DNA of 64,000 bases from Chloroflexota bacterium (GTDB taxonomy: Bacteria > Chloroflexota > Anaerolineae > Anaerolineales > Villigracilaceae). The position numbers and the translations under genes were made by a program. Positions 23,956-63,310 of the stretch are shown piece by piece (the stretch's first letter is position 1; every line of letters begins with the position of its first letter). The notes beneath the pieces were generated by a model that was not told where the DNA came from, searched no databases, and saw only the letters and a list, made by a program, of their open reading frames with translations. The DNA lies in assembly GCA_019873655.1 (NCBI GenBank), contig JAIOAU010000005.1:62001-126000 (forward strand), in the 5' to 3' direction.

Positions 23956-25005
23956 ATGAGCCAAACTCTGAAAATCGTCATCCCCACCGCCGGCTGGGCG
24001 ACGCGCATGCGCCCGCAGACCTGGTCGAAGCCCAAGCCGCTGGTCAGCGTGGCGGGCAAGGCCGTCCTTGAGCATCTTCTCGATGTATTTGCCTCCGTCC
24101 CGCCGGAGATAGAAAGAGAGTACGTCATCATCCTCGGCCCGTATCTGGGCGAGAATCAGATTCCGCCCTACCTGCAGGAACGACACCCGGAGTTGAACGT
24201 CTCCTACGCCCTCCAGCGGGAAATGAAAGGCCAATCGGACGCCCTCTGGTTGGCGCGCGACCTCATCTCCGGGCCGACGATTGTGATCTACTCCGACACG
24301 CTGATCGAGACCGACTTCTCCTTCCTGCCCAACGAAACCGCCGACGGCGTGGCCTGGGTCAAGCCGGTCCCCGACCCGCGCCGCTTCGGCGTGGCCGAGG
24401 TGGACGCCCAGGGACGCGTCACCCGCCTGGTCGAAAAGCCGCAATCGCTCGACAACAACCTGGTTCTGGTCGGCTGCTACTACTTTCGCGAGGGCCGCGA
24501 CCTGCTGACCGCCATCGAGGAGCAGTTCCGGCGCGGCGTGCAACTCAAGGGCGAGTACTTCCTGGCCGACGCCATCAACATCTGGCTGGAGGGCAAGCGC
24601 TTCATGCGCACCCAGCGCGTCGAGACCTGGCTGGACACCGGCACCATCGCCGCCACGCTGGAGACCAACCGCTACCTGTTGTCACGTTTCCACGTTGGGA
24701 CGTTTGAACGTTCCAACGTTCCAACGTTCCAACGCGCCAACGTACAACTCGTCGAGCCGGTCTTCATTCACGAAAGCGCCGAGGTCAGCGACTCGGTCAT
24801 CGGGCCGAACGTCTCCATCGGGCCGGAGTGCAAGATCGAGAACGCCCGCATCGAGGACTCCATCCTGGAGGCGGGGGCAACGGTGAAGGACGCGGCCCTG
24901 ATCGGCTCGTTTATCGGCCGCCGGGCGCGGGTCCAAGGAGGCTCCGCCAAGGCGCCTCCGCTGCGGCTGAACATCGGCGACGACAGCAGCGTCTCGTTCG
25001 AGTAG
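23956..25005 (+). CDS. Sugar-1-phosphate nucleotidyltransferase with C-terminal hexapeptide repeats
   Basis: A 349-residue GT-A-fold nucleotidyltransferase, which joins a sugar-1-phosphate to an NTP to make an activated sugar. The N-terminal IVIPTAGWATRMRPQTWSKPKPLVSV is the G-x-x-T-R-x-x-P...K-P signature. The metal-binding aspartate is in IVIYSDTLIE, and VAWVKPVPDPRRFGVAEVD is typical of RmlA/GalU-like enzymes. A C-terminal left-handed beta-helix (VIGPNVSIGPECKIENARIED) follows. The linker FHVGTFERSNVPTFQRANVQ (about residues 244-263) is the translation of an octamer tandem repeat and looks inserted. A second small palindrome encodes GGSAKAPP near the C-terminus. The exact sugar cannot be told. 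Confidence 0.88.
   Translation: MSQTLKIVIPTAGWATRMRPQTWSKPKPLVSVAGKAVLEHLLDVFASVPPEIEREYVIILGPYLGENQIPPYLQERHPELNVSYALQREMKGQSDALWLARDLISGPTIVIYSDTLIETDFSFLPNETADGVAWVKPVPDPRRFGVAEVDAQGRVTRLVEKPQSLDNNLVLVGCYYFREGRDLLTAIEEQFRRGVQLKGEYFLADAINIWLEGKRFMRTQRVETWLDTGTIAATLETNRYLLSRFHVGTFERSNVPTFQRANVQLVEPVFIHESAEVSDSVIGPNVSIGPECKIENARIEDSILEAGATVKDAALIGSFIGRRARVQGGSAKAPPLRLNIGDDSSVSFE
24683..24746 (+). repeat. Octamer tandem repeat inside nucleotidyltransferase gene
   Basis: Three exact copies of AACGTTCC (24707-24714, 24715-24722, 24723-24730), then the variants AACGCGCC and AACGTACA, preceded by degenerate cacgtt/gacgttt words. The array is in frame in the linker between the catalytic and beta-helix domains, where it adds about 15-20 residues. 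Confidence 0.85.
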
Positions 25006-34317: not shown

Positions 34318-35859
34318 TCATTCCCACTCGATGGTCGCAGGCGGTTTGCTGGTTATATCATACACCACCCGGTTGATTCCGTGCACCTCGTTCACAATTC
34401 TGTTAGCCGCCCGCGCCAGCAAATCGTGGGGCAGGCGCGCCCAGTCGGCGGTCATGAAATCCTCGGTCACCACCGCCCGCAGGACGCAGGTCTCCTGATA
34501 GGTGCGCTCGTCGCCCATCACGCCCACCGAGCGGACGGGCAGCAACGCGGCGAAGGCCTGGCTGGTCCCGGCCCCTTTGCCGAGCAGACCGGCGCGGGAC
34601 AACTCCTCGGTGAAGATGGCGTCGGCGGCGCGCAGACGGGCGACCCGCTCCGGGGTCACCTCGCCGAGCACGCGCACGGTCAGGCCCGGACCCGGGAACG
34701 GCTGCCGCCAGACCATGCTTTCGGGCAGCCCCAGGGCCTCGCCCACCGCCCGCACCTCGTCCTTGAACAGGTAGCGCAGCGGTTCGACCAGGGTGAAGTC
34801 CATGTCCGGCGGCAGGCCGCCGACGTTGTGATGGCTCTTGATCTTGGCCGCCTTGCTGCGGTCGGGCGCGGCCGATTCGACCACGTCCGGGTAAATCGTC
34901 CCCTGGACGAGGAACTTCGGCGCGCCGAGTTTTCGGGCCTCGCGCTCGAAGATGCGGATGAACTTCTCGCCGACGATTTTGCGCTTCTGCTCCGGGTCGG
35001 TGACGCCCGCCAGGGCAGAGAAAAATTCCTCGGCGGCGTCCACCGCGACCAGTTCGACGCCCATCTGCTCGCGGAAAGTGCGCGCCACCTGCTCCGGCTC
35101 GCCCTGGCGGAGCAGGCCGGTGTCCACGAAGACGGCGACGAGTTGGTCGCCGACCGCCCGGTGGACGAGGGCCGCCGCGACCGACGAATCCACCCCGCCG
35201 CTGACCGCCGCCAGGACGCGTTCTCCGCCCACCTGTTCGCGCACGCGGGCGACGCTCGCCTCGATGATGGACTCCGGCGTCCAGGCCGGGGCGCAGCCGC
35301 AGACCTCGACCGCGAAGCGGCGCAGAATCTCCGCGCCTCCCTCGGTGTGCTTCACTTCGGGATGAAATTGCAGACCGTAATAGTTGCGCTCGAAATCGCC
35401 CATCGCCGCATAGGGGCTGTTGGCCGAGCGCGCCAGCGCTGTGAACCCCGGCGGCAATGCCGTGATTCTATCTCCATGGGACATCCACACCTGGAACGAC
35501 TGTCTGACGACTACCGGACTGGCGACCAGCGACTCTACCATTGCATGCCCATATTCCCGTTCTGGGGATGGGTCGACTTTTCCTCCCAGCGCGTGGGTCA
35601 GCAACTGCATGCCATAGCAGATGCCCAGCACCGGCAGGCCGGAGTCGAGGACGTAGCCGGGCAGGGTCGGCGCGCCCTCGGCGTAGACCGAGGCCGGCCC
35701 GCCGGAGAGGATGAATCCCCTGGGGCGGAGCGCCAGCACCGTCTCGGCGGGCGCGTCCCAGGGAAAGAGTTCGCAATAGACGTGCGCTTCGCGCACCCGG
35801 CGGGCGATGAGTTGGGCGTATTGCGAGCCGAAGTCGAGGATGGCGAGGGAATCAGTCAT
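34318..35859 (-). CDS. guaA: GMP synthase (glutamine-hydrolysing)
   Basis: A 513-residue enzyme converting XMP to GMP with glutamine and ATP. The N-terminal class I glutamine amidotransferase has Cys in [10 protein letters not shown] and a His-Glu pair near FHPEVKHTE. The ATP-pyrophosphatase domain has the P-loop [14 protein letters not shown]. The C-terminal dimerisation domain ends with PPATIEWE, the normal family terminus. Length is as expected. ATG 35859 lies within a CAGTGTT-type heptamer array that also covers the xpt stop. It follows xpt on the same strand, so the two form a guanine-nucleotide pair. Confidence 0.97.
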
Positions 35860-35887
35860 CAGTGTTCAGTGTTCAGTGGTCAGTCTT
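35853..35887. repeat. Heptamer tandem repeat linking guaA start and xpt stop
   Basis: Five 7-nt units on the plus strand: CAGTCAT (35853-35859), CAGTGTT, CAGTGTT, CAGTGGT, CAGTCTT (35881-35887). The array contains the guaA ATG (complement of CAT at 35857-35859) and the xpt stop (TGA, complement of TCA at 35880-35882). The same heptamer family recurs at 52709-52764. Confidence 0.85.
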
Positions 35888-36455
35888 CGGCGAAGATGAT
35901 TTGGCCGTTTTCCATCGAGGTGATGACGGCCAGCGATTCGATCGGCACGCCGACCGGCGCGAGCAGGTCGCGCCCGCCCTCGAAAGTCTTCTCGATCAGC
36001 GCCCCGATGCCGACGATGACCGCCCCGGCCGTCTGCGCCAGGCGCACCAGGCCCAGGATGGTCGCGCCGGTGGCGAGGAAGTCGTCGATGATCAACACCC
36101 GGTCGCCTGCGCTCAGGTGTTCGGGCGAGATGATCAGTTCGATCATGCGGCCCTTGGTGTGCGAAGGCGCCAGGGTCAGATAGACCTGATTGGGCATGGT
36201 GACCGGCTTGGTCTTGCGGGCATAGACGACCGGCAGGCCGAGCGGCAACGCGGTCAAGAGGGCCGGCGCGATGCCCGAAATTTCGGCCGTCAACACCTTG
36301 GTCGCCCCGACGTGCGCGAAGCGCCGCGCCAGTTCCTGGCCGCAGCGATTCATCAGCGCCGGGTCCACCTGATGGTTGACGAAACTATCCACCTTGAGAA
36401 TGCCGTTGCCGAGATTCTTCCCCTCCCGGCGGATGCGTTCGACTAACTCTTTCAA
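35880..36455 (-). CDS. xpt: Xanthine phosphoribosyltransferase
   Basis: A 191-residue PRTase, matching Xpt (about 190-195) in length. The PRPP-binding loop is VLIIDDFLATGATI. The N-terminal LKELVERIRREGKNLGNGILKVDSFVNHQ is the recognisable family start, and MPNQVYLTLAPSHTKG is also typical. It salvages xanthine to XMP, the substrate of the adjacent guaA. The start is TTG at 36455 with GGGAGG six bases upstream; the open frame extends much further but only as a shadow of the maf/PBP genes on the other strand. The leader is too short for a purine riboswitch. Confidence 0.92.
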   Translation of the reverse strand: MKELVERIRREGKNLGNGILKVDSFVNHQVDPALMNRCGQELARRFAHVGATKVLTAEISGIAPALLTALPLGLPVVYARKTKPVTMPNQVYLTLAPSHTKGRMIELIISPEHLSAGDRVLIIDDFLATGATILGLVRLAQTAGAVIVGIGALIEKTFEGGRDLLAPVGVPIESLAVITSMENGQIIFAED

Positions 36456-36498
36456 TGCTTCCTCCCGCTGCAGAGTGTGAAATAATCCAGACAGGCGC

Positions 36499-36504
36499 AT
36501 TTTA
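36499..36504 (-). promoter_or_regulatory. -10 box upstream of xpt
   Basis: TAAAAT on the minus strand (36504-36499), about 44 bases upstream of the TTG start of xpt. The -35 is unclear. It lies divergent from the maf -10 box. Confidence 0.4.
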
Positions 36505-36536
36505 CAACGGCACGAAAGAACCCGCCAGAGGTATGT

Positions 36537-36542
36537 TAGAAT
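36537..36542 (+). promoter_or_regulatory. -10 box giving a leaderless start for maf
   Basis: TAGAAT (36537-36542), six bases (cacgcc), then GTG 36549. This is the same six-base geometry as at 507, 23944 and 25064, here with a GTG start, and no Shine-Dalgarno sequence is present. Confidence 0.45.
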
Positions 36543-36548
36543 CACGCC

Positions 36549-37220
36549 GTGACCGGCAAACCTGTGCTGATTCTGGCCTCCGCCTCGCCCCGCCGCTGGG
36601 AACTGCTGGCGCTCGGCAACTGGATGTTCCACCCCCAGCCCGTCGAAGCAGACGAGACTCCGCTGCCTGGCGAGACGCCGGACGCCTACGTCCTGCGGCT
36701 GGCGGAGAGCAAAGCGCGCCTGTGCGCCGAGCGCGCCCACCCGGAGCAAATCATCCTCGCCGCCGACACCGCCGTCGTCCTCGACGGCGCGCTGCTGGGC
36801 AAACCGGCCGACATGGCCGAGGCGGCCGACATGCTCCGGCGGCTGCGCGGCCGCGTGCATCAGGTCTACACCGGGCTGGCCGTCCTGCGCATGTCCGACG
36901 GCCGCCTCCTGACCGATTTGTGCGTCACCGAGGTCCCCATGCGGGACTACAGCGACGAGGAAATGAACGCCTACATCCTGAGCGGCGACCCGCTCGACAA
37001 GGCCGGCGCCTACGCCATCCAACACCCCACCTTCCGGCCGGTCGCCGAGATGCGCGGCTGCTATGCCAGCGTGATGGGCCTGCCGCTCTGCCACCTGGTG
37101 AGAACGCTGCGTCAACTGAACATCCACCCTAACGCCGATGTCCCCGCGAACTGTCAGGTCCATCTGCGTTACCAGTGCCCAATCTTCCGTCAGGTTTTGC
37201 GGGGCGAACAAGTCGGCTGA
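36549..37220 (+). CDS. maf: Maf-like nucleotide pyrophosphatase (dTTP/UTP type)
   Basis: A 223-residue Maf protein, a house-cleaning pyrophosphatase that hydrolyses modified or canonical NTPs to NMPs. ILASASPRRWELL is the Maf signature, ILAADTAVVLDG the catalytic Asp region, and DKAGAYAIQ the typical third block. Slightly longer than the common 190-200 because of a C-terminal tail (ADVPANCQVHLRYQ...). The start GTG 36549 has no ribosome site but a -10 box six bases upstream. It is followed by the penicillin-binding protein gene after 16 bases. Confidence 0.93.
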   Translation: MTGKPVLILASASPRRWELLALGNWMFHPQPVEADETPLPGETPDAYVLRLAESKARLCAERAHPEQIILAADTAVVLDGALLGKPADMAEAADMLRRLRGRVHQVYTGLAVLRMSDGRLLTDLCVTEVPMRDYSDEEMNAYILSGDPLDKAGAYAIQHPTFRPVAEMRGCYASVMGLPLCHLVRTLRQLNIHPNADVPANCQVHLRYQCPIFRQVLRGEQVG

Positions 37221-37236
37221 TTCAAAAAGGAAAAGA

Positions 37237-39453
37237 ATGAAAAGATTCCGCTGGATTCTCCTTGCTTTACTATTGTCCTTGCTCTCTGCCTGCACGGGGG
37301 GCGGCAACCCCTTCAGCGCGCCGACGCCCACCCTGCCGCCGCCCAGCGTCACCACTATCGCGGTACCAGACCCGGAGGCCTTCCTGAGCGCCTACCTGGA
37401 CGCCTACCGGCTGGAAGACTACCCCGGCATGTACGCCCTGCTCAGCGCCGCCAGTCAACAAACCATCGACGCGGCCGCCTTTGCCCAACGGCACCGCGAC
37501 GCCCTCAACGCCCTGAGCGTCCAGGAAATTGACTACACGATTCTCGCCTCGTTGAAGAACCCCAACTCGGCCCAGGTGGCCTTCCGGCTCATCTACCGCA
37601 CCGCCCTCTTCGGCGAGGTGCAACGCGACATCACCGCCAACCTGACCCTGGAACACAACGCCTGGCGGCTGACATGGGACACCGGCCTGATTCTGCCCGA
37701 AATCGCCGGCGGCCGCTCCCTGGCCGCCACCTACACCCAGCCGGCGCGCGGCGACATCTACGACCGCAACGGGCGCGCCATCGTCAGCCAGGCCAACGCC
37801 GTCGCCATCGGCATCGTCCCCGGGCAAATCGGCTTCGATGAAGAAGAAACCATGCTGGTCGCCCTCTACCAGGCCACCGGCCTGCGCCCCGAAACCATCG
37901 CCAGCATGTACCAGTACTACGGCCCCGATCAATACGTCCCCATCGCTGAAGTGGACGCCAGCCAGGTCAACGTCAATTGGATTTGCAGTTACGGCGGCGT
38001 GGTCTGCACGCAATACACCTCCCGCTATTACCAACTCGGCGGCATCGCCTCGCAGACGGTCGGCTACACGCTCCCCATCCCGGCCGAACGCTACGACGAG
38101 TACCGCCGGCGCGGCTACAGCGGCGCAGAGCGCGTCGGCGACGCCGGCATCGAATCCTGGGGCGAATCCTACCTGGCCGGCCGCAACGGGGCCGATGTGT
38201 ACATCGTCAACCCCGACGGCTCGGTCGTCAACCCGCCCATCCTGCACGCCGACCCCCAGCCGGCCCAATCCATCACCCTGACCATCGACCGCGACCTGCA
38301 ATACCAGGCCCAGCAGGCCTTCGACGGCCTGCCCGGCGCGGCCGTCGTCATGGAAGTGAACACCGGCCGCATCCTGGCCCTCGTCTCCACCCCCGGCTTC
38401 GACCCCAACCTGTTCGACCCCAACAACCAGAACAGTTTCGCGCTGGGCAATATGCTCAACGACCCCAACCAGCCGCTCTTCAACCGCGCCACCCAGGGAC
38501 AGTATCCGCTCGGCTCGGTCTTCAAGATCATCACCATGGCCGCCGCCCTCGAAAGCGGCTCCTTCACCGCCGAGACCACCTACGACTGCCAATACGACTT
38601 CACAGAACTCGGCCCCAACAACATCAAACACGACTGGACCTGGCAGCACTGCCAGGATGAACTCCTGCTCTACGGCGAGTGCCGCACCCAGCCCAGCGGC
38701 ATGCTGACCCTGCCGCAGGGGCTGATGCGCTCCTGCAACCCCTGGTTCTACCACATCGGCCTGGCGCTCTACAACCAGGGCAACGGTCAACTCATCAGCG
38801 ACATGGCGCGCGGCTTCGGCCTGGGCGCCCCGACCGGCATCGGCCAGGTGGCCGAGGCCTCCGGCAACATCCCCTACCCGCGCGACGGCAACGACGCCAC
38901 CAACATCGCCATCGGCCAGGGCGAGGTGCAGGTCACCCCGCTGCAAGTGGCGACTTTCACCGCCGCCATCGCCAACGGCGGCACCCTCTACCGGCCGCAG
39001 GTGGTCGAATCCATCCAGCCGGTGGACGGCGCGCCCACCTACACCTTCCGGCCCGAAGCGCGCGGCACACTGCCGGTCAGCCCGGAGAATCTGGAAATCA
39101 TCCGCTCCGCCATGCGCGAGGTGGTCGCCAACCGGCGCGGCACGGCCTACTTCCGCCTCTCCACCCTGCCCATCCCCGTCTACGGCAAGACCGGCACCGC
39201 CGAGACCGGCCGGCCCTACCCGCACGCCTGGTTCACCGGCTTCACCGCCGCCAACCGCGAAGACCGGCCCGACATCGCCGTCACCGTCTTCGTCCCCTAC
39301 ATCGGCGAAGGCTCCGACTACGCCGCTCCCATCTTCCGCCGCATCGTGGAAATCTACTTCTACGGCCGGCCGCAAAGCATCTACTGGTTCGAATCCAACA
39401 TCGGCATCACCGAGACGCCCACCCCCTACGGAGGCGTGACGCCCAGCCCCTGA
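37237..39453 (+). CDS. Class B penicillin-binding protein (lipoprotein-like, NTF2-like N-domain)
   Basis: A 738-residue peptidoglycan transpeptidase. The N-terminus MKRFRWILLALLLSLLSAC ends in a lipobox, so the protein is probably lipid-anchored outside the membrane. Residues 45-160 resemble the MecA/NTF2-like domain (ASLKNPNSAQVAF, RTALFGEVQRD). A PBP dimerisation domain (ARGDIYDRNG) follows. The transpeptidase carries SxxK in GSVFKIITMAAAL, SxN in RSCNPWFYH and KTG in VYGKTGTAETG. All catalytic motifs are intact. AAAAAGGAAAAGA precedes ATG 37237. It lies between maf and rsgA on the same strand. Confidence 0.93.
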   Translation: MKRFRWILLALLLSLLSACTGGGNPFSAPTPTLPPPSVTTIAVPDPEAFLSAYLDAYRLEDYPGMYALLSAASQQTIDAAAFAQRHRDALNALSVQEIDYTILASLKNPNSAQVAFRLIYRTALFGEVQRDITANLTLEHNAWRLTWDTGLILPEIAGGRSLAATYTQPARGDIYDRNGRAIVSQANAVAIGIVPGQIGFDEEETMLVALYQATGLRPETIASMYQYYGPDQYVPIAEVDASQVNVNWICSYGGVVCTQYTSRYYQLGGIASQTVGYTLPIPAERYDEYRRRGYSGAERVGDAGIESWGESYLAGRNGADVYIVNPDGSVVNPPILHADPQPAQSITLTIDRDLQYQAQQAFDGLPGAAVVMEVNTGRILALVSTPGFDPNLFDPNNQNSFALGNMLNDPNQPLFNRATQGQYPLGSVFKIITMAAALESGSFTAETTYDCQYDFTELGPNNIKHDWTWQHCQDELLLYGECRTQPSGMLTLPQGLMRSCNPWFYHIGLALYNQGNGQLISDMARGFGLGAPTGIGQVAEASGNIPYPRDGNDATNIAIGQGEVQVTPLQVATFTAAIANGGTLYRPQVVESIQPVDGAPTYTFRPEARGTLPVSPENLEIIRSAMREVVANRRGTAYFRLSTLPIPVYGKTGTAETGRPYPHAWFTGFTAANREDRPDIAVTVFVPYIGEGSDYAAPIFRRIVEIYFYGRPQSIYWFESNIGITETPTPYGGVTPSP

Positions 39454-50812: not shown

Positions 50813-52344
50813 GGCGCAACGAAAAGATAAAGGCGCAAATCGCCGAAGGAGTGTTGTTCTTCCAGACGGTAGCGCGCCGTCAGCCAGGCCAGGTGCGGAT
50901 GAGTCGCGGCGCCGGCTTGCTGATATTCCTGAATCGATTGCTCGAAAATGACGAACCAAACGCGCCGGGCGCCGCGGACGGCGCTTTCCAGGTCGGGCCG
51001 GGTCTGAACGCCCAGCGCTTGCTGGGTGGCCGGCGCCAGGGTGTCGGCGGGCGAACCCGGCGGGTCGGCGAGGCATTCCTGCTGGAGGTCCGGGGCGTAG
51101 TAGAGGGCGGGCAGCCAGGAAAGTTTGTTGGAGTGCAGGATCACGTCGTCCCGCTGCCTTCTTTCCCGAACCCATCGATCCAGTTCGGCGTAGGGGGCGT
51201 AGGGGAAGCCGTCATAGGTCAGGTGTTGATACCATCCCATCCCGGCGTTGACGAGCAGCAGCGCCGCCAGGCCGACCTTCAGGCCACGCGGCATGACGGC
51301 TTTGGTCAGCGCCCAGGCCAGCCAGAGGCAGAACAGCACTCCGCTGGGGAGCAGGGCGCGCTCGAGGTACAGAGGAAATCTCTGCGAGACGAGAAACAAC
51401 AAGACGGGCGGCGCAAAGGAGAGGTACAACAGCCAGATGCCGGACAGCCTCTGGTCCCGTATTTTGAACGTGTGCAACAGCGCCAGGGCGGCGACCGTCA
51501 GCGCCGCGAATAGGGCCAGGGGCAGCCAGCCCTCGGGCAGCGGCAAATGGGTCGTGTAGGCCAGCAGCAGCGTGAAGAGTTTGGCGACGCCGGGGCGTTC
51601 CGTCCAGTACGAGGCGGAGACCTTTGCAACTTGAGCCGGCAGGTGGACGAGCCAGGGCAGGTAGAGGAGCAGCGCGCCGACCCCGGCCAGCGCCAGCGAC
51701 AGGGCGCTGCGCCATTGGCGGCCGATCAACGGCCAGAGCGCCAGCGGAATCAGGAAGAACGCCGCCAGATTGTGCGTGTACTGCGCCAGCGCCGCCGTCA
51801 GGGCAAAGACCAGCCACCACCTCTGGCCCCCCTGCTGGGTCGCCCGCCAATAGGCATACGCCGCCAGCAGCAGCCAGAGCGCCAGGAAGGCGTACATGCG
51901 TATCTCTTGCGAGTAGTGGATGTGAAAAGGCGAAAGCGCCGCCAGCGCAAGCCCGGCCAGCGCCGTTTTCCGGCCGAACATCTCCTTCGCCAGCCGCCAC
52001 ACCACGAGCAGGGTCATCATTCCGGCCAGGATGGACAGGCTGCGGGCGGCGACGACCGAATCGCCGGCCGCTTTCATCCAGAGCCAGAGCAGGGTGTAAT
52101 AGCCCAGCGGATGGATATCCGCCGAGCCGGCGCCGGTGGGCGTCAGCGTCCCGTAGATCATGGCGGCGGGTCCCTGCCGGGCGAACAGGATGGCAAAGGC
52201 CTCGTCGTACCAGATGGGCCGCGAGGCGATCCCGGCCAGGCGGAGGAGCAGCGCCCCGGCCAGAATCAAAAAAGGCAGAAGCCTCTGCAAAGAGGGGGAG
52301 AGCAGGACAAAAAGAAATCGCAGCCGCCCGACCGCGCTCTTCAT
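50809..52344 (-). CDS. GT39-family membrane glycosyltransferase-like protein (second of two)
   Basis: A 511-residue GT-C protein of the PMT_2 type. SRPIWYDEAFAILFAR carries the Asp-Glu of the first loop, and HIHYSQEIRMYAFLALWLLLAAYAYWRA is a characteristic segment of bacterial GT39 proteins. About nine hydrophobic helices follow, with a soluble C-terminal domain (RDDVILHSNKLSWLPALYY). ATG 52344 overlaps the methyltransferase stop as ATGA. Three overlapping genes (methyltransferase, this one, the gene at 48815) form an operon that may modify an envelope glycan or lipid. Confidence 0.88.
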   Translation of the reverse strand: MKSAVGRLRFLFVLLSPSLQRLLPFLILAGALLLRLAGIASRPIWYDEAFAILFARQGPAAMIYGTLTPTGAGSADIHPLGYYTLLWLWMKAAGDSVVAARSLSILAGMMTLLVVWRLAKEMFGRKTALAGLALAALSPFHIHYSQEIRMYAFLALWLLLAAYAYWRATQQGGQRWWLVFALTAALAQYTHNLAAFFLIPLALWPLIGRQWRSALSLALAGVGALLLYLPWLVHLPAQVAKVSASYWTERPGVAKLFTLLLAYTTHLPLPEGWLPLALFAALTVAALALLHTFKIRDQRLSGIWLLYLSFAPPVLLFLVSQRFPLYLERALLPSGVLFCLWLAWALTKAVMPRGLKVGLAALLLVNAGMGWYQHLTYDGFPYAPYAELDRWVRERRQRDDVILHSNKLSWLPALYYAPDLQQECLADPPGSPADTLAPATQQALGVQTRPDLESAVRGARRVWFVIFEQSIQEYQQAGAATHPHLAWLTARYRLEEQHSFGDLRLYLFVAP

Positions 52345-53078
52345 GAACGTCTCTCCCAAATCTGATACAACCCCAGGCGGCCGTTCTCCCCGTCCGAGGA
52401 AAACGTCTCGCGGACCTCGAACCTGCTCGCCGCGGCCAGGGCGTTCAACTCCGCCTCGTCGAAGGCGTGGACGTAGCGCAACCCGCGCCCGCCGCCGCGC
52501 CAGTCGAGGAGATAATCGCCGGGGTCCACGTCGGCCTCCGTCAGGCCGGCCTCGCTCCAGGGCTGGATGCGTCCGCGCCATTTCTCGCTGCTCAGGAACT
52601 GCCACTCGGAGTGGATAAAGACCCCGCCAGGGGCGAGCAGGGCGTGGACTTTGTTCAGCAGGTCGAGGCGAAGTTCACGCGAGGGGATGTGGTGGAGGAC
52701 GGCGAAGGCAGTGACCAGTGACCAGTGTTCAGTGTTCAGTGTTCGGTGTTCAGTGTTCAGTTTGTCGGGCCAGTCGGGGGCGGTCAAGTCGGCTTCGGCG
52801 AAGGCGAAATGGTCGGGCAACGCTCCGGCTTCCTGCAGGAGCGGACGGCTGAAGTCCAGGCCGAGGTAGCGGCCGCGGAAGCCGCGCCGGGCCAGGGCGC
52901 GCGCCAGTTCGCCGTTGCCGCAGCCGAGGTCGAGGATGGATTCGTGCGCGGCGATCCGCTCCAGCAACCGGTTCACGCCCGGCTGCAGCCGCATCCGCGT
53001 GGACGAGAATTCCCGCCCGAAGGTCTGGTAGAATCTTCGATTGAGTTCGATCAACCGCGCCGCAGCATCTTTATTCAT
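52341..53078 (-). CDS. Class I SAM-dependent methyltransferase with in-frame heptamer repeat
   Basis: A 245-residue methyltransferase. The SAM motif I is ILDLGCGNGELARAL, motif II is YLGLDFSRPLL and the post-motif is FAFAEADLTAPDW. Between these and the FAVLHHIPSRE segment lies KLNTEHRTLNTEHWSLVTA, the translation of a heptamer repeat array, so the fold carries an insertion of about 16-18 residues right before a core strand. A TATAAT box seven bases upstream of ATG 53078 suggests near-leaderless transcription, although AAGAGG also precedes the ATG. Target unknown; the operon with two GT39 genes hints at an envelope role. Confidence 0.85.
   Translation of the reverse strand: MNKDAAARLIELNRRFYQTFGREFSSTRMRLQPGVNRLLERIAAHESILDLGCGNGELARALARRGFRGRYLGLDFSRPLLQEAGALPDHFAFAEADLTAPDWPDKLNTEHRTLNTEHWSLVTAFAVLHHIPSRELRLDLLNKVHALLAPGGVFIHSEWQFLSSEKWRGRIQPWSEAGLTEADVDPGDYLLDWRGGGRGLRYVHAFDEAELNALAAASRFEVRETFSSDGENGRLGLYQIWERRS
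52709..52764. repeat. Heptamer tandem repeat inside methyltransferase gene
   Basis: Eight 7-nt units on the plus strand: CAGTGAC, CAGTGAC, CAGTGTT, CAGTGTT, CAGTGTT, CGGTGTT, CAGTGTT, CAGTTTG. Same unit family as at 35853-35887 near guaA. It reads through in frame on the minus strand. Confidence 0.9.
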
Positions 53079-53085
53079 CCTCTTG

Positions 53086-53091
53086 ATTATA
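53086..53091 (-). promoter_or_regulatory. -10 box upstream of the methyltransferase gene
   Basis: TATAAT on the minus strand (53091-53086), then seven bases (CAAGAGG), then ATG 53078. The -35 would lie within the nonamer repeat; none is clear. Confidence 0.45.
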
Positions 53092-53098
53092 TCTGCGA

Positions 53099-53175
53099 AA
53101 TCTGTGCAATCTGTGTAATCTGTGTAATCTGTGTAATCTGTGGCTGTAATCTGTGGCTGTAATCTGTGGCTAAAA
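53099..53175. repeat. Nonamer/13-mer tandem repeat in divergent gap
   Basis: Copies of TAATCTGTG (9-nt spacing) are followed by copies of TAATCTGTGGCTG (13-nt spacing), spanning the divergent intergenic region between the methyltransferase and elp3-like genes. The last GTG of the array is the likely start codon of the elp3-like gene at 53166. Confidence 0.85.
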
Positions 53176-54800
53176 AACACAACTGGCGCGAACTGCGCGC
53201 CCTGCCCCCCGAAAAACTCGCCCAGGCCCGTCTGGCGCTGGAGGACATCCGCCGCGGCAAACCCGTGGAGGCGGCCCTGCACGCCCACCTGTATAACGCC
53301 GCGCCGCTCCACAAGTCCGCGCTGGTGGCGGCCTACCACCAACTGGTCGCGAGCGGCGAGTGGCAGGCCGATGACGCCCTGCTGGCGCGCATCCGCCTCA
53401 AGCCGGTGCGGACGCTTTCGGGCGTCACCACCGTCACCGTGCTGACCAAACCCTATCCCTGCCCCGGTCAGTGCATCTTCTGTCCCGATGACGTGCGCAT
53501 GCCCAAGAGTTACCTGCCCGACGAACCCGGCGCGGCGCGGGCGGTGGAAAACGACTTCGACCCCTACCGGCAGGTGACCTCGCGGCTGGAGGCGCTGACC
53601 TCGGTCGGCCACCCGACCGACAAAATCGAACTGCTCATCCTCGGCGGAACGTTCTCGTCCTACCGCCGCGACTACCAGGCCTGGTTCGTCCTGCGCTGCT
53701 TTCAGGCGCTGAACGAATCGTCCGATGAGACCTTTCTCGAAGACCGACGGCGCGACCTGCCGGCGCTCATCGAGGCGCTCGCCCGCGAACAGCAGGTCAA
53801 CGAAACCGCCCCGCACCGCAACGTCGGCCTGGTGGTCGAGACCCGCCCGGACGAAATCACGCCCGACGAACTGGCCTGGCTGCGGACGCTCGGCGTGACC
53901 AAAGTCCAGATGGGCGCGCAGAGCCTCGACGACCACATCCTGGAACTCAACCGGCGCGGCCACACCGTCGCCGACCTGCACCGCGCCGTCGCCCTCCTGC
54001 GGGCGGGCGGATTCAAAATCGTCCTGCACTGGATGCCCAACCTGCTCGGCGCGACCCTCGACTCCGACCGCGCCGATTTCCCGCGCCTGTGGGACGGCCT
54101 CTGCCCGGACGAAATCAAAATCTACCCCACCCAACTGCTCGCCAACGCCCCGCTCTACGAAATCTGGCAGCGCGGCGAATACCGGCCTTACTCGACCGGG
54201 GAACTGGTCAGCCTGATTGCAGACGTGAAGCCGACCATCCCGCGCTACTGCCGCGTCAACCGCGTCATCCGCGACATCCCCTCCACGCATGTGGTGGAGG
54301 GCAACAAGCGCACCAGTTTGCGGCAGGACGTCCACGCCGAACTGGCGCGGCGCGGGACGCGCTGCAACTGCATCCGCTGCCGCGAGGTGCGCGGCGAGCC
54401 GGTCGAACCGGCCTCCCTGCGCCTCGACGACCTGGTCTATGCCGCCGACGGCGCGGAGGAGCATTTTCTCTCCTTCGTCACGCCCGAGGACAAGATTGCC
54501 GGATTCCTGCGTCTTTCGCTCCCCGGCCCCAATTCGCCCGCCGACGGCCTGCGCGACCTGGAAGGCGCGGCCATCATCCGCGAGGTGCATGTGTACGGGC
54601 AGTCGCTGGAGGTGGGGCGCGAGCGTCCCGGCGCGGCCCAGCACGCCGGTCTCGGCACGCGTTTGCTGGCCGAGGCCGAGCGGATTGCGCGGGAAAAAGG
54701 ATACCGCCGGATGGCGGTCATCGCGGCGGTGGGGACGCGGCTCTATTACCTGGAACGCGGCTTCGAGCGCGGGGAATTGTATCTGGTCAAGAATCTCTAG
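53166..54800 (+). CDS. Elp3-like radical SAM / GNAT tRNA-modifying enzyme
   Basis: A 544-residue protein. The radical SAM cluster is CPGQCIFC (Cys99, Cys103, Cys106), followed by the partial TIM barrel. CNCIRCREV (about residues 400-408) carries the zinc cysteines. A C-terminal GNAT domain has the acetyl-CoA loop QHAGLGTRLLAEAERIA. Elp3 proteins modify wobble uridine of tRNA at the 5-position. Immediately after the zinc site, GEPVEP (410-415) looks like an inserted palindromic repeat. The start GTG at 53166 is the tail of a tandem repeat; no ribosome site is visible. Convergent with the gene at 54818. Confidence 0.9.
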   Translation: MAKKHNWRELRALPPEKLAQARLALEDIRRGKPVEAALHAHLYNAAPLHKSALVAAYHQLVASGEWQADDALLARIRLKPVRTLSGVTTVTVLTKPYPCPGQCIFCPDDVRMPKSYLPDEPGAARAVENDFDPYRQVTSRLEALTSVGHPTDKIELLILGGTFSSYRRDYQAWFVLRCFQALNESSDETFLEDRRRDLPALIEALAREQQVNETAPHRNVGLVVETRPDEITPDELAWLRTLGVTKVQMGAQSLDDHILELNRRGHTVADLHRAVALLRAGGFKIVLHWMPNLLGATLDSDRADFPRLWDGLCPDEIKIYPTQLLANAPLYEIWQRGEYRPYSTGELVSLIADVKPTIPRYCRVNRVIRDIPSTHVVEGNKRTSLRQDVHAELARRGTRCNCIRCREVRGEPVEPASLRLDDLVYAADGAEEHFLSFVTPEDKIAGFLRLSLPGPNSPADGLRDLEGAAIIREVHVYGQSLEVGRERPGAAQHAGLGTRLLAEAERIAREKGYRRMAVIAAVGTRLYYLERGFERGELYLVKNL

Positions 54801-60776: not shown

Positions 60777-63310
60777 TGGCCGAGATACGCTGTCCGATGT
60801 GCGGAAAACCCAACCCCGAGGAGCGCGAGACCTGCTCCTTCTGCCAGGCGCGTCTCAAGCCGCTGATTGCCCCCTCGCCCGGTACGCCCCCCATTCGAGC
60901 CGGGCAGGAGCCGCTCAAGAAGCCCACCTCAGACCTGGAACGCGCTTCCCTGGGCGGGGGCGAATCCATCCCCGCCGGTCAGGAACCCACCAAGAAGAAT
61001 ACCGCCGAGTTGGAGCAGGCCCTGCCATCCTGGCTGCGTTCTCTGCGCCAGGGACAGGAGCCCCAGGCGACCGAAAAGCCGGCCGCCGAATCCGCTGGCG
61101 AGGGAGGGCTGCCCTTGCCCTCCGCTGCCCAGCCCGCCCCCGAAGAGGACTTGCCCGATTGGCTGGCCGGCCTGGGAGCGCAGGCAGAGGAGGAAGAAGA
61201 GGAATTACCCGACTGGCTGGCCGGAATCCGCGGCAAGGTCGGCGCAGAGACGGGCATCCCGGCCTCGGAGGAACCCATCACCCACCCCCTGGTCGGAGCC
61301 GAAACCCTCGACCGCCTGGGAAGCGAAGGGGCCGTTGGTCCGCCGGAGTATGAAATTGCCTCCGGCCGCATGGAAGCCGAGATCGGCGGCCCGGAACAGG
61401 CGGCGGGCGGAGAAGAACTGCCCGACTGGCTGTCGAAACTGGAAGAATCGGTCCCGGCCGCGCCCGAAGCGGCTGCCCCGGTCGAGGGCCTTCCCGACTG
61501 GCTGAAAGGAACAGCCGAGGCCGCGCCCGAAGCGGCCGCCCCGGCCGAGGGCCTTCCCGACTGGCTGAAAGGAACGGGCGAGGGCCTCCCGACCGAGGCC
61601 GCGCCCGAAGCGGCTGCCCCGGCCGAGGGCCTTCCCGACTGGCTGAAGGGGACGGGCGAGGGCCTGCCGACCGAGGCCGCGCCCGAAGCGGCCGTCCCGA
61701 GCGAGGCGCTTCCCGATTGGCTGTCGAAATTGGAGCAGATGGAAGGAACGGAACCGCCGCCAGCGGCTACGCCCGCCTTCAGCGAGTCCCTGCCCGATTG
61801 GTTGAGCGGAGAAGCGCAGGCCGGACCGCAAGCGCCCCCGCCGGCAATCCTCCCCGAACAACCATCGGAGGAGAGCCCCGCCTGGTTGCCGGAGGGACCG
61901 GCTGGCCTGGAGGCCGAAACCCCGGCCGGGCCGCTGCCCGATTGGCTGGCCGAGGTGGAGGCGAGCGCCGCGCCGACCGAGTCGGCCGCGCCAGCGTTTG
62001 TGATGGGGGCCGAGGAGGAGGAAATCCCGCCCGAGGCGGCCGCGCCCGTCTTCGCGATGGAGACGCCGGACTGGTTGTCCTCGCTGCGGCCCGAGGAGGG
62101 GTCCAAGCCCTTCGCCGAGGAAACAGGCCAACCCCCGTCCGAAGAGACGGGGGGAGAAATCGCGCCCGCCGAACTTCCTTCCTGGGTGCAGGCCATGCGC
62201 CCGGTCGAAGCGGTGGTTTCCGAGGTCGAACTCCCCGAGACGGAAGAAGAGCAGGTCGTCGAGTCGCAGGGGCCGCTGGCCGGGCTGCGAGGGGTGCTGC
62301 CGGCCGCGCCGGGTCTGGGAGCGGTGCGCAAGCCGCCTCCGTATTCCATCAAACTGAGAGTAGATGAGGCCCAGCAGCGTTACGCCGCCTATCTGGAGCA
62401 ACTGGTCACGCGCGAAAATCAGCCCCGCCGGGCGACGGCGGCGGCCAGAGCGGGAGCGGCCAATTGGCTGCGCTGGCTGATCGCCCTGCTCCTGCTGCTA
62501 GTGGTCGGCCTGCCGCTCCTCGGCGGCATGCGCCTGGATGGAGTCCATCAATTCCTGACGCCGCCCGACGTAGCGGCGGCCAGCGATTTGGTCAGCGCCC
62601 TGCCCGACAACGCGCCAGTGCTGGTGGCTTTCGACTACCAACCGGCGCTGGCGGGAGAACTGGAGGCCGCCGCCGGCCCGCTCATGCACCATCTGTTCTA
62701 TCGCGGGGCGCGCCTGACCCTCGTCTCGACCAATCCCATGGGGCCGGCTCTGGCCGAACACTTCATGGGTCGCATGGCGGAGACCCACAATTTCCAGCCG
62801 GCCGATCGTTATCTCAACCTGGGCTACCTGGCGGGCGGAGCGGCGGGCGTCTTTGACTTCATCCTCTACCCGCTTTCCTACGTCCCCTCGACGGGCGCGG
62901 CCGACCCGCTCCAGTCCGCGCCTCTGCGCGGGGTTCAGCAGTTGTCGGATTACGCCCTGATCGTGGTCCTGACCGACGACGCCGATACCGGCCGCATCTG
63001 GGTCGAACAACTGACCGCGGCGGGCCTGCACGGCGAGATTCCCCTGGTGATGGTGGTCTCGGCCCAGGCCGAACCGATGATGCGCCCGTATTATGACTCG
63101 CGCCAAATGGACGGCCTGGTGAGCGGCCTGGCCGGCGCCCGTTTCTACGAACAACGGGTCAGCCTGCCGGTCGAGACGACGGCCCCTTACTGGAGCGCCT
63201 TCAGCCTGGGAATGCTCCTGGTCGTCATCACACTCGCGGTCGGCGGCGCCTGGAACGCCGTTCAGGCCTGGCGCAACCGCAAGCCGGTCATCGAGGAGAA
63301 AGAAGACTGA
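60776..63310 (+). CDS. Zinc-ribbon protein with repeated LPDWL motifs and C-terminal membrane region
   Basis: An 844-residue protein. An N-terminal zinc ribbon (CPMCGKPNPEERETCSFC) is followed by roughly 450 residues of Pro/Ala/Glu-rich low-complexity sequence. In it the pentamer LPDWL occurs nine times, usually with AGL, KGT or SKL after it, plus variants (LPSWL, SPAWL, TPDWL, LPSWV). A transmembrane helix (WLRWLIALLLLLVVGLPLLGG, about residues 562-582) leads to a folded domain, then a second helix near 810-830 and a short charged tail. ATG 60776 overlaps the previous stop as TGATG. No homologue is recognised. It might be a scaffold with repeated short linear binding motifs. Confidence 0.7.
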   Translation: MAEIRCPMCGKPNPEERETCSFCQARLKPLIAPSPGTPPIRAGQEPLKKPTSDLERASLGGGESIPAGQEPTKKNTAELEQALPSWLRSLRQGQEPQATEKPAAESAGEGGLPLPSAAQPAPEEDLPDWLAGLGAQAEEEEEELPDWLAGIRGKVGAETGIPASEEPITHPLVGAETLDRLGSEGAVGPPEYEIASGRMEAEIGGPEQAAGGEELPDWLSKLEESVPAAPEAAAPVEGLPDWLKGTAEAAPEAAAPAEGLPDWLKGTGEGLPTEAAPEAAAPAEGLPDWLKGTGEGLPTEAAPEAAVPSEALPDWLSKLEQMEGTEPPPAATPAFSESLPDWLSGEAQAGPQAPPPAILPEQPSEESPAWLPEGPAGLEAETPAGPLPDWLAEVEASAAPTESAAPAFVMGAEEEEIPPEAAAPVFAMETPDWLSSLRPEEGSKPFAEETGQPPSEETGGEIAPAELPSWVQAMRPVEAVVSEVELPETEEEQVVESQGPLAGLRGVLPAAPGLGAVRKPPPYSIKLRVDEAQQRYAAYLEQLVTRENQPRRATAAARAGAANWLRWLIALLLLLVVGLPLLGGMRLDGVHQFLTPPDVAAASDLVSALPDNAPVLVAFDYQPALAGELEAAAGPLMHHLFYRGARLTLVSTNPMGPALAEHFMGRMAETHNFQPADRYLNLGYLAGGAAGVFDFILYPLSYVPSTGAADPLQSAPLRGVQQLSDYALIVVLTDDADTGRIWVEQLTAAGLHGEIPLVMVVSAQAEPMMRPYYDSRQMDGLVSGLAGARFYEQRVSLPVETTAPYWSAFSLGMLLVVITLAVGGAWNAVQAWRNRKPVIEEKED
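61480..61720 (+). repeat. DNA-level tandem repeat encoding LPDWL-KGT units
   Basis: Near-identical DNA segments (GGCCTTCCCGACTGGCTGAA followed by GCGCCCGAAGCGGC) repeat three times between about 61480 and 61700, with fainter copies on both sides. The repeat unit is roughly 60-85 bases. Copy number could vary by slippage. Confidence 0.8.

Follow-up and report, generated by a model that had tools for sequence, protein, structure and literature searches.

A tandem array of 7-nt units inside the gene of an apparently ordinary enzyme raises the question of whether it serves as an on/off switch, as the preliminary description had supposed, or came to stand there in some other way. The array lies in a window of 64,000 nucleotides (the whole stretch of DNA that was analysed) from the genome of a Chloroflexota bacterium of the Anaerolineales, and the features concerned are collected in Table 1. 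As argued below, it is probably part of a genome-wide population of heptamers, occupying a tolerant loop that has been rewritten repeatedly and is locked in frame, rather than a switch.

Table 1. Coordinates of the array, its host gene and related features in the window.
Feature	Position	Strand	Basis and remarks
Class I SAM-dependent methyltransferase, 245 aa, array host	52341-53078	-	Pfam; model mean pLDDT 91.7, pTM 0.90
Heptamer array, eight units	52709-52764	-	(AACACTG)n-type on the coding strand; product approximately LNTEHRTLNTEHWSLVT; TRF, register, codons
Two CAGTGAC units, also coding S-L-V-T of core strand beta-4	52709-52722	-	Alignments and model
elp3 (tRNA U34 radical SAM/GNAT enzyme), divergent neighbour	53166-54800	+	NCBIfam TIGR01211 E=3.5e-143; synteny
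Second array, same heptamer family as the window array	35853-35887		Junction of two minus-strand ORFs, 34318-35859 and 35880-37355

Laid out in register on the forward strand, the array consists of two CAGTGAC units, three of CAGTGTT, one CGGTGTT, a further CAGTGTT and a final CAGTTTG; CAGTGTT is exact in four of the eight, and the other four carry one or two changes. TRF calls period 7 at 52723-52761 (5.6 copies, 93% matches) and also period 21 at 52709-52761, and together with the register layout and the open frame it confirms the eight in-frame heptamers originally described. The two-unit pattern CAGTGTTCAGTGTT, allowing up to three mismatches, has 12 matches in the window; 100 shuffles gave 2.16 on average and never more than 6. 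Beside the second array, the ORF at 34318-35859 is presumably guaA-like.

The product of the host gene is, by profile and predicted fold, a class I SAM methyltransferase. Its frame is open through the array, Methyltransf_23 (E=5e-19) and related Pfam profiles match it, and a methyltransferase profile is found in all 42 members of the sequence set behind the structure model. In the model derived from these 42 sequences, a weak loop joins the predicted strands beta-3 (residues 91-95) and beta-4 (residues 119-125), the weakest blocks, with means of 78 and 69, falling at residues 101-120. Both Pfam and the model thus agree with the original view of an otherwise standard methyltransferase in which the array follows the SAM-binding motifs and precedes a core strand. 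Counting its own, 98 of 101 genomes gave a match to the methyltransferase, some of these matches being weak or paralogous. elp3 adjoins it in divergent orientation in 67 of the 80 best-ranked loci (154 were confirmed), an adjacency which suggests a bacterial partner enzyme in wobble-uridine modification. No NCBIfam model scores above its cut-off for the methyltransferase. Comparison of its model with known structures placed METTL6 first (Z 22.0), ahead of near ties whose scores differ by no more than 1, and the Trm9 structure 5cm2 at Foldseek rank 23, with a profile match spanning positions 25-221. A Trm9-like tRNA wobble-uridine methyltransferase is a candidate function, from the elp3 neighbourhood and the long profile match, but METTL6 comes first structurally.

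The behaviour of the loop across relatives was followed by aligning the window gene to the 80 best-ranked of 154 confirmed orthologues, from assemblies nearly all titled Anaerolineae, Anaerolineales or Chloroflexi. Lags of 4-15 were scored, an array being called where at least 20 of 28 positions matched themselves at a given lag. Loop length ranges from 42 to 111 nt across the 81 aligned genes, and many versions are heptamer arrays of differing sequence. Lag 7 passes in the loop of 19 of the 81 and lag 14 in 12, lags 4-6, 8-13 and 15 pass in none of them, and the number of loop arrays expected from mononucleotide shuffles of the loops is 0.0. The rest of the same genes, outside the loop, gave lag 7 in 1/81 and lag 12 in 4/81. 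A second methyltransferase sample (L031-L060, drawn from 30 of the 98 matching genomes) showed lag 7 in 14, lag 14 in nine and lag 12 in one; it overlaps the 80 orthologues (L061-L140) in species, and the two sets of counts are not summed.

The units that build these loops, with families assigned by eye, include AACACTG, TCAGTKA, AAGTGAG, AAGAAGT, TCAATTG, CATTCTC, GTTGAAG and CACTGCT, and the peptides they encode are unrelated (LSVISDQ, LNTEHRT, EEFLLPSY and CQLSIVNCQL, for example). Even the window gene and its sister L061, 81% identical (87% over the tree columns), have different loop units. A tree computed from the alignment minus the loop requires no fewer than 12 changes in whether an array is present and 14 in unit family; the tree is a quick one with 33 of its 78 inner branches open, and these counts are accordingly approximate. 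By eye, L061, L070, L076, L079 and L080 have loop arrays that look two-armed and inverted. In one orthologue, L087, the loop array is preceded by CCTGCCCTGAGCAATGTCGAAGGG, which we take to resemble a different dispersed repeat. These comparisons point to the loop as a hot spot that heptamer arrays appear to have rewritten repeatedly in the order.

The preliminary description had the array inserted into the enzyme, which holds only in part. Array-free orthologues also have a segment at this place, with a median loop length of 51 nt compared with 57 nt for loops with arrays and 72 nt for the window gene, so that the loop has been rewritten with a modest net gain and only partly by insertion. Moreover, two of the eight units code for the conserved S-L-V-T within beta-4, and the array therefore overlaps the conserved core as well as the loop. 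Since array-free homologues largely share S-L-V-T (as in FDLVTAF), the rewritten part corresponds to about residues 99-119.

If slippage altered the number of units, the methyltransferase would be turned on and off as in a phase-variable contingency locus. As in such loci, the 7-nt unit lies inside an ORF and is not a multiple of three, and the other two frames of the host gene stop 10 and 17 codons past the array; a change by a single unit would hence inactivate the gene, and this part of the original argument is upheld by the frame analysis. A pure AACACTG array would read TGA in every frame, and the two would-be TGA codons of the window array read CGA and TGG. Unit number does differ between related species. 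However, the tract is short and interrupted, with at most three identical units in succession where a contingency locus would have a long uninterrupted run. None of the 81 aligned orthologue segments (the window gene and the best 80 of 154, one genome per species) contains a stop codon, and the four orthologues with split matches (G027, G093, G095 and G098) are all in frame through the loop. The count samples one genome per species from loci ranked by similarity, in which a frameshifted copy would rank lower and rare switching could hide. The sister species L076 and L080, with few differences in the flanks shown, have arrays that differ by exactly 21 nt, or three units, and the gene is widespread and stands beside elp3 rather than in a surface-protein setting. 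In Haemophilus, the heptanucleotide tracts linked to phase variation lie upstream of variable surface genes; these resemble the window array in being tandem 7-nt units near a gene, whereas the latter is short, interrupted and set within a conserved enzyme, with no off allele seen among the 81 orthologues. Altogether, the proposed on/off switch finds no support in these data and is very improbable. One match with an internal TGA, in G063, was considered as an off allele and rejected, as it belongs to a diverged methyltransferase with an ORF of 190 residues, and G065, whose locus is on two contigs, was left out of the frame verdict.

Beyond the methyltransferase, the heptamer of the window array is dispersed through the whole genome, which has 111 matches to its pattern with up to two mismatches, compared with 6 for the reversed control, and thus holds many dispersed direct repeats, as genomes with TAACTGA-type repeats do. 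At least 41 arrays or near-arrays were laid out around the listed match places. Thirteen of the 39 arrays checked for ORFs have no surrounding ORF of at least 60 aa, and many of the ORFs around the remaining arrays are likely spurious. A Pfam scan of ten ORFs covering nine arrays placed six arrays in ORFs with a match (molybdenum-hydroxylase-type, radical SAM, peptidase M23, near its start, kinase-FGE, uracil-DNA glycosylase and QueA) and left four ORFs without one; the methyltransferase is the seventh array-bearing gene with a Pfam match. Within 364 kb of this genome, made up of the window and 15 samples of 20 kb, period 7 leads with nine of 23 period calls and at least six unit families, one array possibly counting at more than one period. 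Codon-shuffled controls of the same sample gave no period-7 array, and none occurs in 200-kb samples of G010 and of G057. TAACTGA-type repeats are mostly found just upstream of start codons; of the arrays here, several have flanks that end near CAT. Seven arrays (L142, L145, L146, L148, L154, L167 and L168) lie within a larger dispersed repeat with shared flanks.

Different genomes carry different units. CAGTGTTCAGTGTT is present in 17 of 101 genomes, the window genome included, with a single match of the reversed control in all of them; TCAGTKATCAGTKATCAG is present in 32 of the 101, with no match of its reversed control, and has no match in the window genome. By eye, the abundance of a unit in a genome and the unit found in its loop agree only loosely over 30 genomes; G046, for example, has 15 TCAGTKA matches and no array in its methyltransferase loop.

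Other enzymes show the same periodicity. The methyltransferase and three further ORFs were picked for orthologue comparison because the window genome bears an array in each, and 30 orthologues were sampled for QueA (of 55 genomes), uracil-DNA glycosylase (of 61) and the radical SAM ORF (of 61). In QueA, lag 7 passes in 9/30 and lag 14 in 4/30 at one loop (query residues 258-289, L174-L203), and among these orthologues there is no other lag and nothing outside that loop. Uracil-DNA glycosylase has lag 7 in three of 30 (query residues 177-195; L263, L264 and L291) and no lag besides. The radical SAM ORF (L161) gave lag 7 in 7/30 and lag 6 in 16/30, with 11 of 13 period-7 clusters at query residues 159-231 and two at 636-638; it was dropped as a clean loop case since in relatives it seems to correspond to two adjacent genes, with the arrays mostly at their junction.

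Regions not chosen for arrays give a different picture. The neighbouring Elp3 genes have lag 7 in 2/67 and lag 9 in 12/67, and the flanks of the same 80 loci (442 kb) contain 17 clusters of period 9 and 12 of period 7, three of the latter being N or poly-T runs. The 37 elp3-methyltransferase spacers (16 kb) pass at lag 7 in two cases, one probably an N run, and at lag 8 in five. Period 7 thus dominates the loops; with a threshold this loose, it does not dominate DNA in general. The methyltransferase loops, with 19 arrays in about 4.6 kb, are far denser in arrays than flanks or spacers. That a coding loop should be denser than intergenic DNA is not predicted by tolerance alone, and site preference or benefit may be needed in addition.

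The most probable explanation starts from the genome rather than the gene. Some Anaerolineales genomes would make or spread short, imperfect heptamer arrays with a fixed 7-nt period and many unit sequences; many of these would fall between genes, and some would reach or develop within protein loops in which rewriting is tolerated, where the only survivors would be versions that keep the frame and are free of stop codons. The beta-3/beta-4 connection of the methyltransferase would be one such loop, repeatedly rewritten in the order, with changes of unit number that are frame-locked and fixed only in three-unit steps, so that the array would endanger the gene through mutation and supply loop sequence instead of acting as a switch. 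The strongest argument is the period: coding selection favours multiples of three and yet the loops show 7 and 14, so the length of the unit would be set by the repeat-making process, with selection only filtering arrays for frame and stops. We infer that tolerance and retention, not benefit, explain the hot loop. Weighing against this account are the density of arrays in the loop, the excess of periods 9, 8 or 6 over 7 in flanks, Elp3 genes, spacers and the radical SAM ORF, the empty G010 and G057 samples and the loose tie between a genome's units and its loop.

As to the origin of the 7-nt period, heptamers are over-represented among the longer simple repeats of many bacteria, and the only cause offered in the relevant passages of two papers is a hypothesis, cited for heptamers in general, of slippage tied to a 7-nt polymerase footprint (PMC4692102, PMC4679880). 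A bolder form of the explanation, possible but doubtful, is that some Anaerolineales possess a process, acting on DNA in a fixed register of 7 nt, that builds arrays of almost any unit and prefers certain loops, making up a lineage-wide mutational system of loop remodelling with frame-locked retention. Seeding by the S-L-V-T codons (TCACTGGTCACT, nearly two heptamers) was also considered; it suits TCAGTKA and AACACTG arrays and is insufficient because it leaves the TCAATTG, CATTCTC, GTTGAAG and AAGAAGT arrays at the same loop unexplained.

Selection could play a larger part if the repeats lengthened or diversified an enzyme loop to advantage and new arrays were kept for that reason. The density of arrays above that of flanks and spacer and the recurrent changes on the tree are consistent with such an adaptive loop, as is the fact that QueA, the other strong case, is a tRNA-modifying enzyme and that the methyltransferase lies beside elp3. 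The encoded peptides, however, are unrelated, model confidence is lowest in the loop, and uracil-DNA glycosylase shows arrays too, so that this account is considered unlikely. Chance, or repetition at the level of the protein with no special DNA process, might be invoked for a loop that is free to vary, and the window stretch by itself offers only eight imperfect units; it is nevertheless extremely improbable when the periods in the methyltransferase loop, QueA and uracil-DNA glycosylase are 7 or 14 and not multiples of three, and when the same units recur across the genome while their controls score close to zero.

A transposable element with a preference for the array sites might instead have left the arrays as footprints or carried them as cargo. 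An insertion element does have 19 ends in the window genome, all at contig edges (L244-L262), and period-7 DNA lies directly outside seven of the 19 by lag score and 14 by eye. Against this, two insertions outside arrays suggest, by eye, target duplications of 5 bp and not 7 bp (L260/L245 and L249/L262), and the matches listed for the element-end pattern include none on contig C5, and so none at or close to the window array. With apparent 5-bp duplications the arrays look like pre-existing targets, used rather than made by the element, and a mobile-element origin is quite improbable. The narrower proposal that transposon target duplication supplied the 7-nt unit was rejected, as the element beside the arrays seems, by eye, to duplicate 5 bp.

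Several known systems resemble the arrays described here in part. Rickettsia palindromic elements are defined, longer elements acquired in frame by unrelated proteins. In-frame acquisition of repeats by unrelated proteins is common to both systems, but the loops examined here contain 7-nt units of several unrelated sequences, some two-armed and inverted, and not one defined palindromic family. Similar too are the direct repeats of the heptamer TAACTGA in Beggiatoaceae, Cyanobacteria and Bacteroidetes (MacGregor 2015, PMC4679880), which, in the parts of that paper relevant here, are likewise dispersed and short, mostly intergenic and in some cases within ORFs. The window unit is AACACTG and not TAACTGA; the loop unit TCAGTKA of several relatives nevertheless includes the reverse complement of TAACTGA, which is thus present in some relatives' loops, and LSVISYQ, a reverse reading given in that paper, is close to the LSVISDQ or LSVISHQ of several orthologue loops. 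That system, as far as those parts go, has one dominant unit and ORF cases that are mostly protein ends or hypothetical proteins (PMC4679880), whereas the loop described here lies inside an enzyme and is filled, from one member of the order to another, by several unrelated units.

Heptamers of the types GGGAATC and GGGGA(C/T)T in Xanthomonas and Nostoc are also dispersed, with inverted pairs mentioned, which recalls the inverted look of some loop arrays here; they differ, in the sections concerned, in forming G-quadruplexes and in being over-represented in non-coding DNA (PMC4692102). In Borg proteins, tandem repeats create new protein segments, and homologues can carry different DNA units, as in the present loops; in the sections of the source that treat them, however, Borgs are archaeal extrachromosomal elements whose repeats mostly create disordered regions (PMC9879509). 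The matches listed for the open-licence literature include no account of enzyme loops that capture heptamers repeatedly and exchange their units, nor any paper on heptamer arrays in Chloroflexi. Dispersed heptamers, some of them in ORFs, are therefore already known, and their unit-swapping capture in enzyme loops seems new. Its value lies in the fact that period 7 (and 14) in enzyme loops separates a mutational process from selection, with the methyltransferase and QueA loops as sites at which sister species can be compared for the gain, exchange and loss of arrays; repeats of a non-coding type can supply new protein loop sequence.

Other repeats of the window were also noted. The spacer between the methyltransferase and elp3 (53091-53171) is filled by a second repeat family, a ATCTGTGTA 9-mer followed by TGTAATCTGTGGC, which has 39 matches genome-wide with up to two mismatches and none in the reversed control. 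TRF further reports long tandem repeats of 63 and 78 nt at 61456-61723, perhaps coding since both lengths are multiples of three, and an octamer array, AACGTTCC, of 4.6 copies at 24707-24743.
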